Part shown: positions 10,184 through 32,063 of the stretch, piece by piece
Numbering within the stretch: position 1 is the stretch's first letter
Layout of the letters: every line of letters begins with the position of its first letter
Made by a program: the position numbers and the translations under genes
The notes under the pieces: generated by a model
Seen by the model: only the letters and a program-made list of their open reading frames with translations
Database searches by the model: none
What the model was told of the DNA's origin: nothing
Assembly (NCBI GenBank): GCA_016212215.1
Contig: JACRGV010000084.1
Coordinates: 1 to 32,436 of the forward strand
Direction of reading: 5' to 3'
DNA from: Nitrospirota bacterium
GTDB lineage: Bacteria > Nitrospirota > 9FT-COMBO-42-15 > HDB-SIOI813
DNA: 32,436 nt

Positions 10184-13041
10184 TTCTTCTTGTCATTCTT
10201 TCATTAAATTCCTCCGGTTGTACATCTGTTTTTAAATCATACGTATCGGATTCAAACCTGAAAAAGGGTAAAAAGCTTATTGAAAAACGTAAGTATGATG
10301 AGGCTGAAACTACTGTTATGAAGGCGATTGCCTATCAACCGGATAATTCTAAGGCTTGGATTACACTTGGCGACATCTTCTTATCAATTGAAGATTATAA
10401 CAGCGCTGAGAATATGTATAAAGAGGGGATAAGGCGGGATAAAAATGCCTATGATGCTTATGCAGGTTTATGGGCATTAGAGCTTGAAGAAACCGGTTAT
10501 ACAGAAGAAGTTAAGGTAAAGGTAAAAAAGGAGATTGAGGGATTTATTGATAATGGTGAGAAAAAGCCTGAGAGATTAATGGCAGCATATAAAGGTTTAA
10601 ACTTTCTTCATGAATATGACAAGTCAGCAGAACTCGCAAGAGACATAGTTGATTCAGGTGCAGATAAAAAGACTGTTGGTCTACTTGCTCTTGATATTTT
10701 TGAAGAGTTATTAAGAGAAAAGGATGCAGTTAAAAGGCTTGCCAAGATAGATGAGTTTATGAAAACATTTTCTATGAGCAGGGAACATGTATATTTAGAA
10801 AATGTTATGCGGCTCAATATCGCTGCAGGTGAACTTAATGATAAAGAACTTTTATACAAATATGGAGAAGACTGGATCAGGAACGACCCTGATAACAGAA
10901 GGGCAAACTTTATTGTCGCTAAAAATTATGTAGACTCAGATATTGCGTTGGACAGGGCAGTTGATTATCTGAAAAAGGCATTAACTTTGATTAAAGAGCC
11001 TGACCCGGCGGACAAACCTGAATTTTATCCTGATGCTGAATGGTATAAGGACCTAAAAAAATCAGAGAGTGTATATTATGACACACTTGGGTGGGCATAC
11101 TATAAGCTTGGAAGATACAGAGATGCTGAGCGGGCATATAATATGGGAGAGAAGTATAATGATTTTAACTCAAGCCTGTATTATCACGCGGGCGTGCTGG
11201 AGGAAAAAGAGGGGAAAATAGAGGATGCACTGTTTTCATACATAAACGCATTAAAGGCCGGAGAAAATGACAATGCATATCAAAACCTCGGTAATATTTT
11301 AGAGACTCATTACAGCATAAAAGAACCGTTCTACAAGGTATTTGCCGGAATGGAGGGGCTTACAACATTTACAGATGTAACTGAAGTGGCAGGGCTGAAA
11401 GGGGTTAACACTCAACGCGTGAGCTGGGGGGATTACAACAATGACGGTTATGATGATCTGCTATTTAACGGATATATGCTGTATAAAAATAACGGTGACG
11501 GGACATTTAAAAATGTTACACAAGAGGCAGGGATTGCTTATGTCACCGGTGCAAACGGCGGGGTGTGGGGCGATTTTGATAATGATGGTAATCTTGATTT
11601 TTACACGTTTGCATCGGGTAAAGATTCTACTGACAGGTTCTGGAGAAACAATGGGGATGGGACATTTACTGATATTACAAAAAACGCCGCACAAACACCT
11701 GATCCATTTCCTTCTGAGGCCGCGGCATGGGGGGATTATGACAAGGATGGGTTTATAGATATATATGTTGCCAATTATGAAAAACCTTTGTTCACGACTA
11801 TAGAAAGGGCTATGGGGACACCTGACCGGCTGTATCATAATAATGGTGACAATACGTTTGAAGAAGTAAGCACTGCCGCTGGGATTGCCCCGCCTGAAAA
11901 TATGTGTGGAAGGGGTGTCAGTTGGGGAGACTATGACAATGATGGAGACCCTGATATTTATGTTTCCAATTACAGGCTTGACTCGAATTTTTTGTGGAGG
12001 AATAACACTTCACCCATCCATCTCCCCTCACCCTTACCCTCTCCCCTTAGGGGAGAGGGAATATTTTCCAATGTTGCTGAAGAGGCAGGGGCAGAGGGAT
12101 ATGAGCAGGAGGGGATGTACGGACATTCAATAGGTGCAGACTGGGGAGATTATAATAATGACGGTAACCTCGACCTTTTTGTCTCTAATCTTGCACACCC
12201 CCGGTACATCGGATTCTCTGATAAGAGTATGTTATTGGAGAATCAGGGGCCTCCTGATTATCGTTTCAAAGATAGGTTCGGGAGTTCCGGTATAAGGTTT
12301 GAAGAAACAACGGCTGACCCTTCTTTTGCAGACTATGATAATGACGGTATGCTTGACCTGTTTTTTACTTCCACTTATGAAGGAAAGAAGAGTTTCCTTT
12401 ATAAAGGTAATGGTGATGGAACGTTTACTGATATTACCTGGCTTGCCGGTGTGAGGGTGGATAATGGCTGGGGGAATGCTTTTGCAGACTTTGATAATGA
12501 CGGTGACCTTGATCTGATAACAGCAAGCGGAACCGGCAATGGTGTACGGCTCTTTAGAAATGATGGTAATGGTAACCACTATCTACAGGTAAAAGTGGTC
12601 GGCAGTAAGTCAAACCGTTCAGGTATCGGGGCAAGGGTGACAGTTATGCGGAAATCGGATTGCGGAAAGGAAATGTCACTGAACGAGCCGCTTACAAAGG
12701 GGCATGAAGAACAGCGGGACAAGAATGTCCCGCCTATCCTCAATTTATTATTCACGGATAGGCAGTCTTCCCCATTTGTGGATGGGGGGTCATCTCTATT
12801 TATGGATAGGCGGGGTTTTCCAACCCCGCCGGAAGAAGGATCTTCGTGTGCAAACGAAACTATGAAACAGATCAGGGAAGTGCAGGGTGGGAAGGGGAGC
12901 GGGTCTCAACATTCGATGATTGCCTCGTTTGGATTCGGCAGGTATGATGGAGTGGTTGATGTAGAGGTAACATTTCCATCAGGCAAGGTTATTCGTAAGT
13001 CTGATGTAAAAACCGGACAGAGGCTCTTGGTAATAGAATAA
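10144..13041 (+). CDS. TPR / VCBS (FG-GAP) / ASPIC-UnbV lipoprotein carrying two in-frame repeat insertions
   Basis: A signal sequence ends in a lipobox (LNSSGC). TPR-like helical pairs follow (encoded at about 10255-10460 and 11050-11300). Next come seven propeller-type repeats, each with a DxDxDG-like calcium site (W-G-D-Y-N-N-D-G-Y-D-D and variants) and usually N-N-G-D-G-T-F, encoded from about 11420 to 12570. An ASPIC/UnbV domain closes the protein (GIGARVTV ... REVQGGKGSGSQ ... VTFPSGKV). Such proteins are extracytoplasmic and often of unknown substrate. Two repeat modules lie in frame: gamma at 12005-12062 splits a repeat between its N-N and G-x-F, and alpha-beta at 12674-12856 splits the UnbV domain. 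The reading frame survives both. The start is taken at ATG 10144 (GGAAG upstream); ATG 10162 is possible. Confidence 0.85.
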   Translation: MSSFQRMVKKLFLILLVILSLNSSGCTSVFKSYVSDSNLKKGKKLIEKRKYDEAETTVMKAIAYQPDNSKAWITLGDIFLSIEDYNSAENMYKEGIRRDKNAYDAYAGLWALELEETGYTEEVKVKVKKEIEGFIDNGEKKPERLMAAYKGLNFLHEYDKSAELARDIVDSGADKKTVGLLALDIFEELLREKDAVKRLAKIDEFMKTFSMSREHVYLENVMRLNIAAGELNDKELLYKYGEDWIRNDPDNRRANFIVAKNYVDSDIALDRAVDYLKKALTLIKEPDPADKPEFYPDAEWYKDLKKSESVYYDTLGWAYYKLGRYRDAERAYNMGEKYNDFNSSLYYHAGVLEEKEGKIEDALFSYINALKAGENDNAYQNLGNILETHYSIKEPFYKVFAGMEGLTTFTDVTEVAGLKGVNTQRVSWGDYNNDGYDDLLFNGYMLYKNNGDGTFKNVTQEAGIAYVTGANGGVWGDFDNDGNLDFYTFASGKDSTDRFWRNNGDGTFTDITKNAAQTPDPFPSEAAAWGDYDKDGFIDIYVANYEKPLFTTIERAMGTPDRLYHNNGDNTFEEVSTAAGIAPPENMCGRGVSWGDYDNDGDPDIYVSNYRLDSNFLWRNNTSPIHLPSPLPSPLRGEGIFSNVAEEAGAEGYEQEGMYGHSIGADWGDYNNDGNLDLFVSNLAHPRYIGFSDKSMLLENQGPPDYRFKDRFGSSGIRFEETTADPSFADYDNDGMLDLFFTSTYEGKKSFLYKGNGDGTFTDITWLAGVRVDNGWGNAFADFDNDGDLDLITASGTGNGVRLFRNDGNGNHYLQVKVVGSKSNRSGIGARVTVMRKSDCGKEMSLNEPLTKGHEEQRDKNVPPILNLLFTDRQSSPFVDGGSSLFMDRRGFPTPPEEGSSCANETMKQIREVQGGKGSGSQHSMIASFGFGRYDGVVDVEVTFPSGKVIRKSDVKTGQRLLVIE
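12005..12062 (+). repeat. Gamma module inserted in frame in a VCBS repeat
   Basis: The nucleotides contain the gamma palindrome CCCTCTCCCC/GGGGAGAGGG and its CACCCTTACC flank. The translation, SPLPSPLRGEG, interrupts the normal N-N-G-D-G-T-F turn of a calcium-binding repeat. The insert is close to 51-54 bp and keeps the frame. Confidence 0.8.
12674..12856 (+). repeat. Alpha-beta module inserted in frame in the UnbV domain
   Basis: The insertion has the full composite order: GAACGAGCCGCTTACAAAGG and ATGAAGA (alpha), GGGACAAGAATGTCCC, GGATAGGCGGGGTTTTCC with ACCCCGCC (beta), then a degenerate alpha end, CTTCGTGTGCAAAC. It is about 180 bp long, adds about 60 residues between the TVMR strand and the REVQGG motif of the UnbV domain, and contains no stop in this frame. 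Confidence 0.82.
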
Positions 13042-15233: not shown

Positions 15234-15270
15234 GCCCCCTGTGTGTCATGCGCAGGGGGCTTTTTTATTT
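15234..15270 (+). terminator. Terminator of the cold-shock gene
   Basis: GCCCCCTGTG pairs with CGCAGGGGGC (one G-T pair) around a short loop and is followed by TTTTTT. Confidence 0.9.
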
Positions 15271-15271
15271 C

Positions 15272-15418
15272 TGGGTGAACCCTCATGAGCGGGGCGCTCA
15301 CAAAGGGCAATGAAAATTAGTGGGACAAGAATGTCCCACCTATCCTTTTTATATGTCTGGGTTATATGTCTGGATAGGCGGTGTTTTCTTACCCCGCCGT
15401 AGGGATTTTCGTGTGTAA
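15272..15418. repeat. Alpha-beta-alpha repeat copy
   Basis: GTGAACCCTCATGAGCGGGG ... TCACAAAGG ... ATGAAAAT is followed by GGGACAAGAATGTCCC, CTATCC, GGATAGGCGG .. ACCCCGCC, then GGGATTTTCGTGTG. The CATGAGCGGGGCGCTCA part is itself palindromic. An internal doublet of TATATGTCTGG lies in the loop of the beta arm. Confidence 0.8.
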
Positions 15419-15423
15419 ATCAT

Positions 15424-15500
15424 TGGTGCCCCCGAGCCGAATTGAACGGCTGACAAACGGTTTAGGAAACCGCTGCTCTATCCGACTGAGCTACGGGGGC
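15424..15500 (-). tRNA. tRNA-Arg (anticodon CCT), CCA encoded
   Basis: The minus strand starts GCCCCCGTAGCTCAGTCGGA and ends CTCGGGGGCACCA. The 7-bp acceptor stem GCCCCCG/CGGGGGC is perfect. The anticodon stem-loop is GCGGT-TTCCTAA-ACCGT, giving anticodon CCT. The T-arm reads AGCCG-TTCAATT-CGGCT. The 3' CCA is in the gene. It lies between a repeat copy and the PilZ gene. Confidence 0.96.
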
Positions 15501-19903: not shown

Positions 19904-20340
19904 CAGAGATTTTCGGGGGAACTCACATGAACAAGGGTTCACAAAGGGCCATGAAAATCAGCGGGACAGGAAAGTCCCGCCTGTCCGCATAGAAATGGAT
20001 AGGCGGGGTTTTCTTACCCCGCCGGAAGGGATTTTCGGATGAACTTTCATGAGTGGGGGCGCTCACAAAGGGGAATGAAAACCCCACCCTCACCCTAACC
20101 CTCTCCCTGAGGGAGAGGGGGCTATGTTGATTCCCTCCCCTTCAAGGGGAGGGTTAGGGTGGGGATGGGGTTGATTTTCGGATGAACTCACATGAACCAG
20201 GGTTCACAAAGGGACATGAAAATCAGCGGGACAGGAAAGTCCCGCCTATCCGCATAGAAATGGATAGGCGGGGTTTTCTTACCCCGCCGTAGAGGATTTT
20301 CGGATGAACGCTAATGAGCCTTCAGCTCACAGGAGAATGA
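19904..20340. repeat. Alpha-beta-alpha-gamma-gamma-alpha-beta-alpha array
   Basis: The order is easily read. Alpha (GATTTTCGGGGGAACTCACA .. GGTTCACAAAGG .. ATGAAAA) is followed by beta (GGGACAGGAAAGTCCC .. GGATAGGCGGGG .. ACCCCGCC), alpha, and two gamma palindromes (near 20100 and 20137). Then come alpha, a beta nearly identical to the first, and alpha. The alpha linker flanks every other module. This is the clearest view of the system in the window. Confidence 0.88.
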
Positions 20341-20575
20341 AACTTTCACAATGTAGGTTGAGCTTGCTGATGGGATAAAGCTTGGGATACCTCTTGCATA
20401 TTTCCCCCGAACTGTGAAATTCCTTTTTCAATACTTCCGCACATTCCTTAGCCTTCCCCAATGCACGTACATGGCGGCCTTCAAGTTCTGCCTTCTCCTT
20501 AGGGTCTGTCATAAAATAACCTATACATTTATGCATCTCATCTTCCGGCCATCTTTGTGTGCTCCTCAATCGCAA
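20341..20575 (-). pseudogene. Possible gene remnant
   Basis: A minus-strand frame encodes MTDPKEKAELEGRHVRALGK and then AKECAEVLKKEF before turning into unremarkable sequence and running into an alpha repeat. The recognisable part resembles the N-terminal helix that precedes the catalytic strand in small MNT-type nucleotidyltransferases, but the catalytic GS motif is absent. I take it as a fragment cut by repeat DNA. Confidence 0.3.
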
Positions 20576-20871
20576 CCCCTCAGCGTAGATTCAACTACGC
20601 CTTCTGGTTTGCTCAATCGGTCGCACTCAAACCTGACCGAAATCTGAGCGACTAAATGCACAACTTATTTCATGACAGACCCTTATTTAATCTATCTCTC
20701 CATGCATCTACATAAGTATCATATTTACCCATGTCCGGGATGTTAACATAATGTTTAGGTTAAGACAAGATGCAGGAATTGCCATTGAAGCTGAATCGCA
20801 ACAGGCAGGGTTATTGACAATTATGTCGGATTGTTTAAAAATGGTGAGTAAAAATAGAAAGGGGTTTTAAA
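20576..20871. other. Gene-free stretch before mtnA
   Basis: No ORF is supported. GGCGTAGTTGAATCTACGC (minus strand, around 20584-20602) is a short inverted repeat. The last bases supply AAAGGGG for the mtnA start. Confidence 0.4.
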
Positions 20872-22302: not shown

Positions 22303-22379
22303 CTCCATTTTTATGTTTTCTTAGTTTGCATTACAAATTATAAGTGTGTTATATTTTCAGCAACCGTAACATATATTCA
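22303..22379 (+). repeat. 77-bp direct repeat, left copy
   Basis: It matches 24475-24551 at roughly nine of ten positions. It contains TTGCAT, a 17-bp spacer and TTATAT (22326-22354), a plausible promoter reading toward the restriction-modification genes. It flanks the pair on the left. Confidence 0.8.
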
Positions 22380-22475: not shown

Positions 22476-23447
22476 ATGAAAATGGGAAAAACATTATTGA
22501 GAAATAAAGAATTGCCAACTTTTTTTGGAGAGTTGCAACTCAAAGGGGAAAAAAAAGGAATTGATTTTGCAAAAAGAGATGGCGACTCCCCCATTTTATT
22601 TTACAAACATCCGAACGGTGAATTATGGCAAGGGAATAGTATTGAATGGCTAAAAAGTATGAGCGATGAAAGTATAGATTTGATTTTTGCTGACCCGCCT
22701 TACAATATTAAAAAAGCCAATTGGGACAGCTTTGAAAGCCATGAAGAATATATAAAATGGTCATTGCAATGGATTGAGCAAGCTGCAAGAATTTTAAAAC
22801 CAACAGGAACACTATATATATGTGGTTTTTCTGAAATACTTGCGGACTTAAAACATCCGGCATCAAAGTATTTTACATCGTGCCGCTGGATTATCTGGCA
22901 TTACAAAAACAAAGCAAATCTTGGTAATGATTGGGGACGAAGCCACGAGAGCATTTTGCATTTTCGAAAAACAAAGAGTTTTGTTTTCAATATTGATGAA
23001 ATTCGTATTCCTTATGGCGAACACACTTTAAAATATCCAAGCCATCCGCAAGCCGAAACAAGCCAATATGGAAAGGGCAGAAATGGCAATCATATTTGGG
23101 AGCCAAATCCGCATGGAGCAAAACCAAAAGATGTGTTAGAAATTCCTACTACTTGCAATGGAATGCACGAAAAAACGCCACACCCTACACAGAAGCCCGA
23201 AGAACTTTTAAGGAAATTTATTCTTACATCTTCAAATGTTGGTGAGGTTGTATTAGACCCTTTTTGTGGTTCAGGAACAACTCCTGTTTGTGCAGAACAA
23301 CTTCAGAGAAAATGGCTTGCCTGCGACCTTTCACCAGAATATCTTGATTGGGCTGCAAACAGGATTGAATTGGTTGAAGATTGGCCGATTGAGCAATGGA
23401 TTAAATACGATTTTGAAAACCTTAAAAGAAGAAACTCTATACGATGA
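22476..23447 (+). CDS. Type II DNA methyltransferase, beta-class (N6-adenine or N4-cytosine)
   Basis: The catalytic DPPY (73-76) comes before the AdoMet loop DPFCGSGTT (261-269), which is the beta-class order. The stretch after DPPY (NIKKANWDSFESHEEYIKW) and TPHPTQKPEEL fit the N6/N4 methylase family that includes MboII- and RsrI-type adenine enzymes. The 323-aa length is normal. It overlaps the next gene by ATGA, typical of a restriction-modification pair. The ribosome site is weak. The AT-rich codon choice differs by eye from the housekeeping genes and suggests transfer. The recognition site cannot be read from the sequence. Confidence 0.92.
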   Translation: MKMGKTLLRNKELPTFFGELQLKGEKKGIDFAKRDGDSPILFYKHPNGELWQGNSIEWLKSMSDESIDLIFADPPYNIKKANWDSFESHEEYIKWSLQWIEQAARILKPTGTLYICGFSEILADLKHPASKYFTSCRWIIWHYKNKANLGNDWGRSHESILHFRKTKSFVFNIDEIRIPYGEHTLKYPSHPQAETSQYGKGRNGNHIWEPNPHGAKPKDVLEIPTTCNGMHEKTPHPTQKPEELLRKFILTSSNVGEVVLDPFCGSGTTPVCAEQLQRKWLACDLSPEYLDWAANRIELVEDWPIEQWIKYDFENLKRRNSIR

Positions 23448-24474: not shown

Positions 24475-24551
24475 TCTCCATTTTAAGTTTTCTTAGTTTG
24501 CATTGCAAATTATAAGTGTGTTATATTTTCAGCAGCCATAACATATATTCA
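24475..24551 (+). repeat. 77-bp direct repeat, right copy
   Basis: It carries the same promoter-like elements as the left copy (TTGCAT, 17 bp, TTATAT at 24498-24526). It runs into the truncated HEPN gene. Confidence 0.8.
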
Positions 24552-31519: not shown

Positions 31520-31784
31520 TATTTTAGGATGAACCGTCATGAGCGGGGCGCTCACAAAGGGAAATGAAAATAGTAAACAGTAAGCAGTGAGCAGTAAACA
31601 GGAAAGGCAGTCTTTATCTGCTAACTGCTTACCGCTTACTGCTTACTTGGGGTGATTTTCGGATGAACCCACATGAACCAGGGTTCACAAAGGACCATGA
31701 AAATCAGCGGGACAAGAAAGTCCCGCCTATCCTCGTAGAAATGGATAGGCGGGGTTTTCTTACCCCGCCGGAGGGGATTTTCGA
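31520..31784. repeat. Alpha-beta repeat with embedded heptamer cruciform
   Basis: Alpha (GGATGAACCGTCATGAGCGG .. TCACAAAGG .. ATGAAAAT) is interrupted by an imperfect 30-bp inverted repeat built of AGTAAGC-type heptamers (31572-31601 against about 31618-31647, roughly 25 of 30 pairing). Then come a second alpha, a full beta (GGGACAAGAAAGTCCC; GGATAGGCGGGG .. ACCCCGCC) and GGAGGGGATTTTCGA, which leads straight into the next gene's start codon. Confidence 0.8.
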
Positions 31785-32063
31785 GTGAAGAACACATGCA
31801 CACGTATCATAGTTGCATTTATGGTAATATTATTTTTCTTTGATTTCTTCCAACTATGTAATCCTGCCTTCGCCGCAGATGAACAGGAACAGGAAGAAAC
31901 GAAGATTGAGATAGAGATTGAAAAACAGGCCATTGTTGTTAAAATAGAGCGTCCCTCAATAGTTTTTCCTGTAAAGTGGAAGAACCCGGATTTCCCAGAG
32001 GAAAGGGAGTATGTGTTAAAACAGGATTTCATGGATGAGATACGGAAGATAACAGGTAAGTAG
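31785..32063 (+). CDS. Small secreted protein (92 aa) whose start region comes from a repeat
   Basis: GTG at 31785 follows GGAGGGG by 8 nt, and both lie in the end of the alpha-beta repeat. The N-terminus is a signal peptide (CTRIIVAFMVILFFFDFFQL ... CNPAFA, cleavage after AFA). The mature part is short and charged (EQEQEETKIEIEIEK) with a beta-type core (AIVVKIERPSIVFPVKW) and the end EYVLKQDFMDEIRKITGK. The family is not recognised. It is probably periplasmic. Confidence 0.65.
   Translation: MKNTCTRIIVAFMVILFFFDFFQLCNPAFAADEQEQEETKIEIEIEKQAIVVKIERPSIVFPVKWKNPDFPEEREYVLKQDFMDEIRKITGK

Follow-up and report, generated by a model that had tools for sequence, protein, structure and literature searches.

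A gene for a TPR/FG-GAP/UnbV_ASPIC protein of a Nitrospirota bacterium contains, in frame, a short palindromic alpha-beta repeat that is dispersed in the genome, where it reaches an estimated 260 copies and has entered at least 30 predicted genes, some of them essential, which makes the phenomenon much larger than the single gene described in a first-pass annotation of this DNA. Protein-coding repeats as such are known; this case is genuine, unusually extensive and gives a clean signal in frame and direction. In the reading that we consider very probable, the alpha-beta repeat represents a protein-coding palindromic repeat resembling the Rickettsia palindromic elements (RPEs), whose genic copies are tolerated loop inserts that have come through a filter for one direction and frame, for a hydrophilic peptide and for weaker hairpins. 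The familiar examples of such repeats come from intracellular Rickettsiales; here, about 30 insertions are found in another phylum, in hosts as constrained as valyl-tRNA synthetase (ValRS), DNA polymerase I (PolA) and MutL. In such a process, the alpha-beta repeat, which is part of a mosaic family of alpha, beta, gamma and delta units, would spread as non-autonomous and presumably selfish DNA, chiefly between genes. Upon landing in a protein loop in one direction and frame it would encode a hydrophilic, probably disordered peptide, and the gene would then survive with the repeat translated as an extra loop. The peptide itself is probably without function, and the decorated proteins are predicted to be made and functional, including the decorated enzymes, which would retain activity.

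The window, which is the whole stretch of 32,436 nucleotides that was analysed, corresponds to contig C84 of a MAG of 2.99 Mb in 164 contigs (Table 1). The best named match of the 969-residue protein comes from the Nitrospirae MAG nzgw272, whereas its nearest orthologue, from the same genus, is 75% identical, and the gene on its 3' side is the same neighbour in this same-genus genome. The insert is located between the strand ARVTVMR and the motif IREVQGG and is crossed by the open reading frame without a stop codon. In an alignment its net excess over the nearest orthologue amounts to 61 codons, with the latter reading GIGARVTVMRKAQSGKRETSKQIREVQGG at this site, where it contains ten residues (MRK-AQSGKRETSK-QIREVQGG). 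The first 61 nucleotides of the insert share 72-82% identity with the window copies at 15286, 19927, 20192 and 31673, and a profile match covers positions 12680-12855 with 85 bits. The in-frame and stop-free repeat that had been claimed at 12674-12856 of the UnbV domain is thus confirmed, with ends that were right within about 4 nt, an uncertainty that reflects the presence of GAAA at both junctions and only once in the orthologue. This pair might be a target duplication but could equally have arisen by chance. A chance match of the repeat itself is very unlikely, as blastn recovered at least 87 pieces of it across the genome and as none of five relatives carries an alpha-beta repeat in the orthologous position. 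The proposal that the insert has the full module order of the intergenic copies holds insofar as it is an alpha-beta repeat, but the insert departs from the typical intergenic copies by about 50 additional nt in its central loop and by a degenerate left alpha end. The long-loop sub-lineage to which it belongs occurs four times, in each case within a gene. In a structure model of the UnbV domain (mean pLDDT 66.7, ten sequences), the insert is predicted as coil with a pLDDT below 50 between two beta strands, which shows it in a loop position of the model.

Table 1. Positions of the host gene, its inserts and intergenic repeat copies in the window.
Feature	Position	Strand	Basis or remark
Host gene, TPR / FG-GAP / UnbV_ASPIC protein, 969 aa	10132..13041	+	ORF and domain matches, orthologues
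Translated gamma repeat insert (TSPIHLPSPLPSPLRGEG) in FG-GAP repeat of the UnbV gene	12007..12062	+	ends approximate
GAAA, left junction; possible target duplication with 12856-12859	12670..12673	+	sequence; single GAAA in orthologue L032
Translated alpha-beta repeat insert, 183 bp, 61 codons, residues 848-908	12673..12855	+	ends +/- ~4 nt
GAAA, right junction	12856..12859	+	sequence
Intergenic alpha-beta copy, abuts tRNA gene on other strand	15266..15427	+	repeat and profile matches
Intergenic alpha-beta copy, first in alpha-beta-alpha-gamma-alpha-beta mosaic	19908..20053	+	repeat and profile matches
Intergenic alpha-beta copy, second in mosaic	20173..20318	+	repeat and profile matches
Intergenic alpha-beta copy	31654..31799	+	repeat and profile matches

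A gamma repeat, read as WRNNTSPIHLPSPLPSPLRGEGIFSNVAEE in place of the WRNNGDGTFTNVAEE-like sequence of the orthologues, was missing in all seven orthologues read at this site, in line with the view that one gene has taken up two repeat types, which are both lacking in orthologues. Alpha is almost never solitary, and nearly all of its 87 units run straight into beta, gamma, delta or a variant, thus forming the alternating alpha-X-alpha mosaics that are found at 19908-20318 and in the sampled genome stretches. The tRNA gene at 15427-15500 on the opposite strand meets the end of an alpha-beta copy with its 3' end.

Copy numbers were obtained from sampled stretches and whole-genome searches. A profile search of about 0.80 of the 2.99 Mb identified 98 near full-length alpha-beta copies, 73 of them intergenic, and an unbiased subset with 40 copies in 0.46 Mb underlies the estimate for the genome. 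Coding sequence makes up 82% of this subset, yet only 7 of these 40 copies were called genic, implying that genic insertion is either avoided or purged. The predicted host genes comprise 22 from the sampled stretches and 8 that were found when forward- and reverse-frame peptides were searched against the whole genome and large ORFs were re-read, with 150 of 350-480 candidates scored in this forward and reverse check. Searches of Pfam and NCBIfam assign these hosts to ValRS, PolA, MutL, glutamate racemase (MurI) and NadB, and to the type-4 UDG (UDG4), family-B polymerase (PolB), HypC-HydE, CobU, SDR, P-type ATPase, SLT transglycosylase, SNF2-type helicase and FliK families and a second UnbV protein, whereas one of the 30 is short and uncharacterised. 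In-frame insertion has thus affected 30 unrelated, conserved genes, with orthologue alignments available for about 12 of them, in which the sites of the relatives are empty or contain unrelated loop sequence. The exception is glutamate racemase, where the two species of the genus share a beta insert in the same position (L255, G001:C257; G000:C78:14862-15029), which was apparently inherited from their common ancestor. Since it is shared by sister species, at least this insert may be old and perhaps kept for a reason. The same-genus genome contains copies in the same frame in further proteins. In relatives, the corresponding loops of PolA, UDG and the transglycosylase (Slt) hold other peptides (LDSRFHGND, PPLVKGGQGGF and CHPEFISGS..LKQVQND, located in G001, G004 and G007, e.g. 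L244, L239, L234, L235, L250 and L277), whose look suggests an origin from repeats. The presence of unrelated repeat-like peptides in identical loops suggests that these accept insertions repeatedly, and they look like recurrent landing sites.

The direction of the genic copies is uniform. In 30 of 30 host genes the repeat has the orientation of the gene and is read in one single frame, in which the inserted peptide includes ...LTKGHENQRDKNVPPILN..MDRRGFLTPPEG... and reads roughly FSDETHMSGALTKGHENQRDKNVPPILN..MDRRGFLTPPEGFSSE across the hosts. Some of the sampled stretches were chosen by a frame-specific search, and the frame-neutral stretches and the whole-genome forward and reverse check agree with this result. 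In the unbiased stretches, 7 of 7 genic copies are on the same strand; a single one, located at the start of a gene in C8, is in another frame and was set aside as a start-site artefact. An opposite-strand, gamma-like match of 24 bits in C7 was set aside as false, and in two candidates for reverse-frame hosts, stop-to-stop ORFs in C21 (1418 aa) and C29 (409 aa), the repeat is outside of the called gene. Among the sampled stretches and the scored whole-genome candidates, no called gene was found to use a reverse frame. A sense preference is also found between co-directional genes, where 32 intergenic copies are in sense and 8 in antisense orientation (p = 0.0002). Together with the uniformity in genes, this bias would be expected if the repeat inserted into the sense strand in a strand-specific, transcription-linked manner, for example via an RNA or single-strand intermediate, in which case its direction would reflect the mode of insertion instead of a peptide filter. 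Direction alone fails to account for the use of one frame in three, an objection that is softened by the 74-77-nt beta core, whose coding frame is open in 52 of 57 intergenic copies compared to 9 and 0 of 57 for the two other forward frames and which thus usually offers one. Since the intergenic bias amounts to just 80% and may stem from selection acting on transcripts, we regard this explanation as unlikely. As a variant, which we consider quite doubtful, strand-specific and transcription-linked spread might combine with a coding-adapted sub-lineage, devoid of in-frame stops and the long hairpin, that breeds from gene to gene and seeds one peptide module through the proteome, as could be read from the sense orientation of the repeat in all 30 host genes and in 32 of the 40 tandem intergenic gaps.

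Our analysis does not support the suggestion that selection keeps at least one frame of the elements open. Among 51 near-complete intergenic copies translated in six frames, 38 (74.5%) contain an open frame compared to 74% of dinucleotide shuffles, and there is thus no over-representation. On average, 0.76 frames per copy are open, even fewer than the 1.16 of shuffles, and intergenic copies show no depletion of nonsense changes (3 seen compared to 1.8 expected). Just 3 of the 51 complete intergenic copies are open in the frame that genes use, which is usually shut by a TGA in alpha and a second TGA at the right end. A base near this end that brings the TGA into frame is lacking in 19 of 21 genic copies but only in 21 of 71 others. 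The repeat family is thus not kept open, whereas the genic copies are open by necessity, the simplest reason being that closed insertions would have ruined the gene. In typical intergenic copies we observed a complete mini-ORF of 38-40 codons from ATG to TGA (MSGALTKGHENQRDKNVPPILVEMDRRGFLTPPEGIFG) in the same frame as in genes (e.g. G000:C161:25918-26053). If insertion was random and only stop-free copies survived, all genic copies would be open and lack the base that frames the TGA, as is the case. However, for the core such a filter predicts about half of the insertions in the observed frame (52 of 111 open frames) and for the full unit about 1 in 13, whereas the observed share comprises all of them, and the reverse strand offers an open frame in 36 of the 51 copies and one such frame in 43 of the 57 cores that no called gene in the sampled stretches or among the scored candidates was found to use. 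Openness as sole filter is therefore very improbable.

The properties of peptide and hairpin provide further distinctions. In the best 15-residue stretch, the hydropathy of open reverse frames averages 1.64, equivalent to a hydrophobic run, compared to 0.15 in the inserted peptides. The alpha-beta repeat folds with z-scores of -4.3 and -5.4 against shuffles, and in typical intergenic copies AAGAAAGTCCCGCCTATCC can pair with GGATAGGCGGGGTTTTCTT in a stem of 19 bp, as RNA or DNA. The perfect long stem is found in 23 of 57 intergenic but none of 18 genic copies, which differ in their number of stem pairs (p = 1.6e-5) and favour two short hairpins over the long one. These data are best read as the outcome of a filter on genic copies that leaves one direction and frame, hydrophilic peptides and weaker hairpins. 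Shared descent could contribute to the loss of the hairpin, as in case of the long-loop sub-lineage. Monophyly of the genic copies is not supported, since their clustering on the short core is not significant (15 changes compared to 17 in shuffles). The substitutions in genic copies are evenly distributed over the three codon positions (13/13/13) and thus carry no sign of selection on the peptide itself, including purifying selection at this level, and the third-position excess of intergenic copies seems mainly due to one A/T site. Recruitment of a module whose peptide or mRNA hairpins are functional in their hosts and that was spread by selection would be compatible with the same peptide in about 30 genes, the insert common to two species and the confinement of the long-loop sub-lineage to genes. 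It is nevertheless highly improbable in light of unrelated hosts, inserts in disordered loops, relatives without inserts and substitutions without codon-position bias. Finally, although short-read assemblies are prone to break at repeats and the genome is a fragmented MAG, a misjoining of two loci or a decayed host gene is hardly credible, since in every checked case both flanks continue the same protein, with the inserts lacking at these sites in relatives, and since the stop-free frame, the coding score on both sides and the synteny with the sister genome argue against either.

The likeness to Rickettsia palindromic elements that had been proposed is supported by a translated insertion of this kind and by orthologues without the repeat. 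RPEs and the Wolbachia palindromic elements are short palindromic repeats with intergenic copies and with in-frame copies in unrelated genes, where each gives rise to a conserved peptide, in hosts that include tRNA synthetase and DNA polymerase genes, and relatives can bear different repeat types at one site (PMC10969869, PMC2229807, PMC3767692). The Nitrospirota repeat shares the intergenic and in-frame genic copies, the conserved peptide and the tRNA synthetase and polymerase hosts, and as a dispersed palindrome of about 100-150 bp that occurs both intergenically and within genes it shows traits of protein-coding palindromic repeats. It differs by its host phylum, which is not Rickettsiales, by about 260 copies, its mosaics with other repeats, the use of one strand and frame and genic copies without long hairpin. 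In its behaviour, it belongs to the same class as the RPEs. GTAG/CGTC REPs are translated inside genes of the free-living Opitutus terrae, Thauera and Xanthomonas, with many intragenic hosts being related to DNA repair and tRNA and with intergenic copies mostly in transcribed positions (PMC3733652). In these respects the Nitrospirota repeat is similar, including a host that is apparently free-living as judged from its phylum and genome size, but its unit of about 140 bp starts with ATTTTCGGATGAAC and ends in the same sequence, without GTAG or CGTC tag at the end. A Y1_Tnp domain (RAYT, PF01797), which was matched in 5 of 14 genomes as control, was not detected in this genome, and a RAYT transposase was thus rejected as mover, with no transposase identified. 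With neither tag nor Y1_Tnp detected, the repeat is not taken as RAYT-linked REP. With regard to the terminal inverted repeats and target-site duplications of MITEs, GAAAAT/ATTTTC flank beta, and a 4-bp GAAA repeat is found at the window site only, with other sites being too diverged to place the ends. The enterobacterial repeats RU-1 (ERIC), RU-2 and RU-3 are MITE-like, 100-170 bp long and contain open frames fused into genes (PMC2759123), as does the Nitrospirota repeat in a similar size range, although with about 30 hosts, one frame and many inserts deep in conserved housekeeping proteins. A search of the available literature for translated repeats in Nitrospirota found no earlier report.

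With hosts as constrained as those described and with relatives whose corresponding loops carry unrelated repeat-like sequences, the conversion of repeats to protein becomes testable. The adherence to a single frame and direction, despite an open reverse frame that is left unused, separates a filter for the absence of stop codons from a filter for a tolerable peptide or RNA.

An Rfam search of the window matched solely the tRNA and gave no identity for the repeat. The window also contains a 71-bp direct repeat with 94% identity at 22309-22379 and 24481-24551, 2.2 kb apart, whose first copy is located upstream of the gene at 22476 and possibly constitutes a shared regulatory region, and a 31-bp inverted repeat (84%) at 20501-20683 with arms 121 nt apart (AGGGTCTGTCATAAAATAACC), which may be the relic of another small element.
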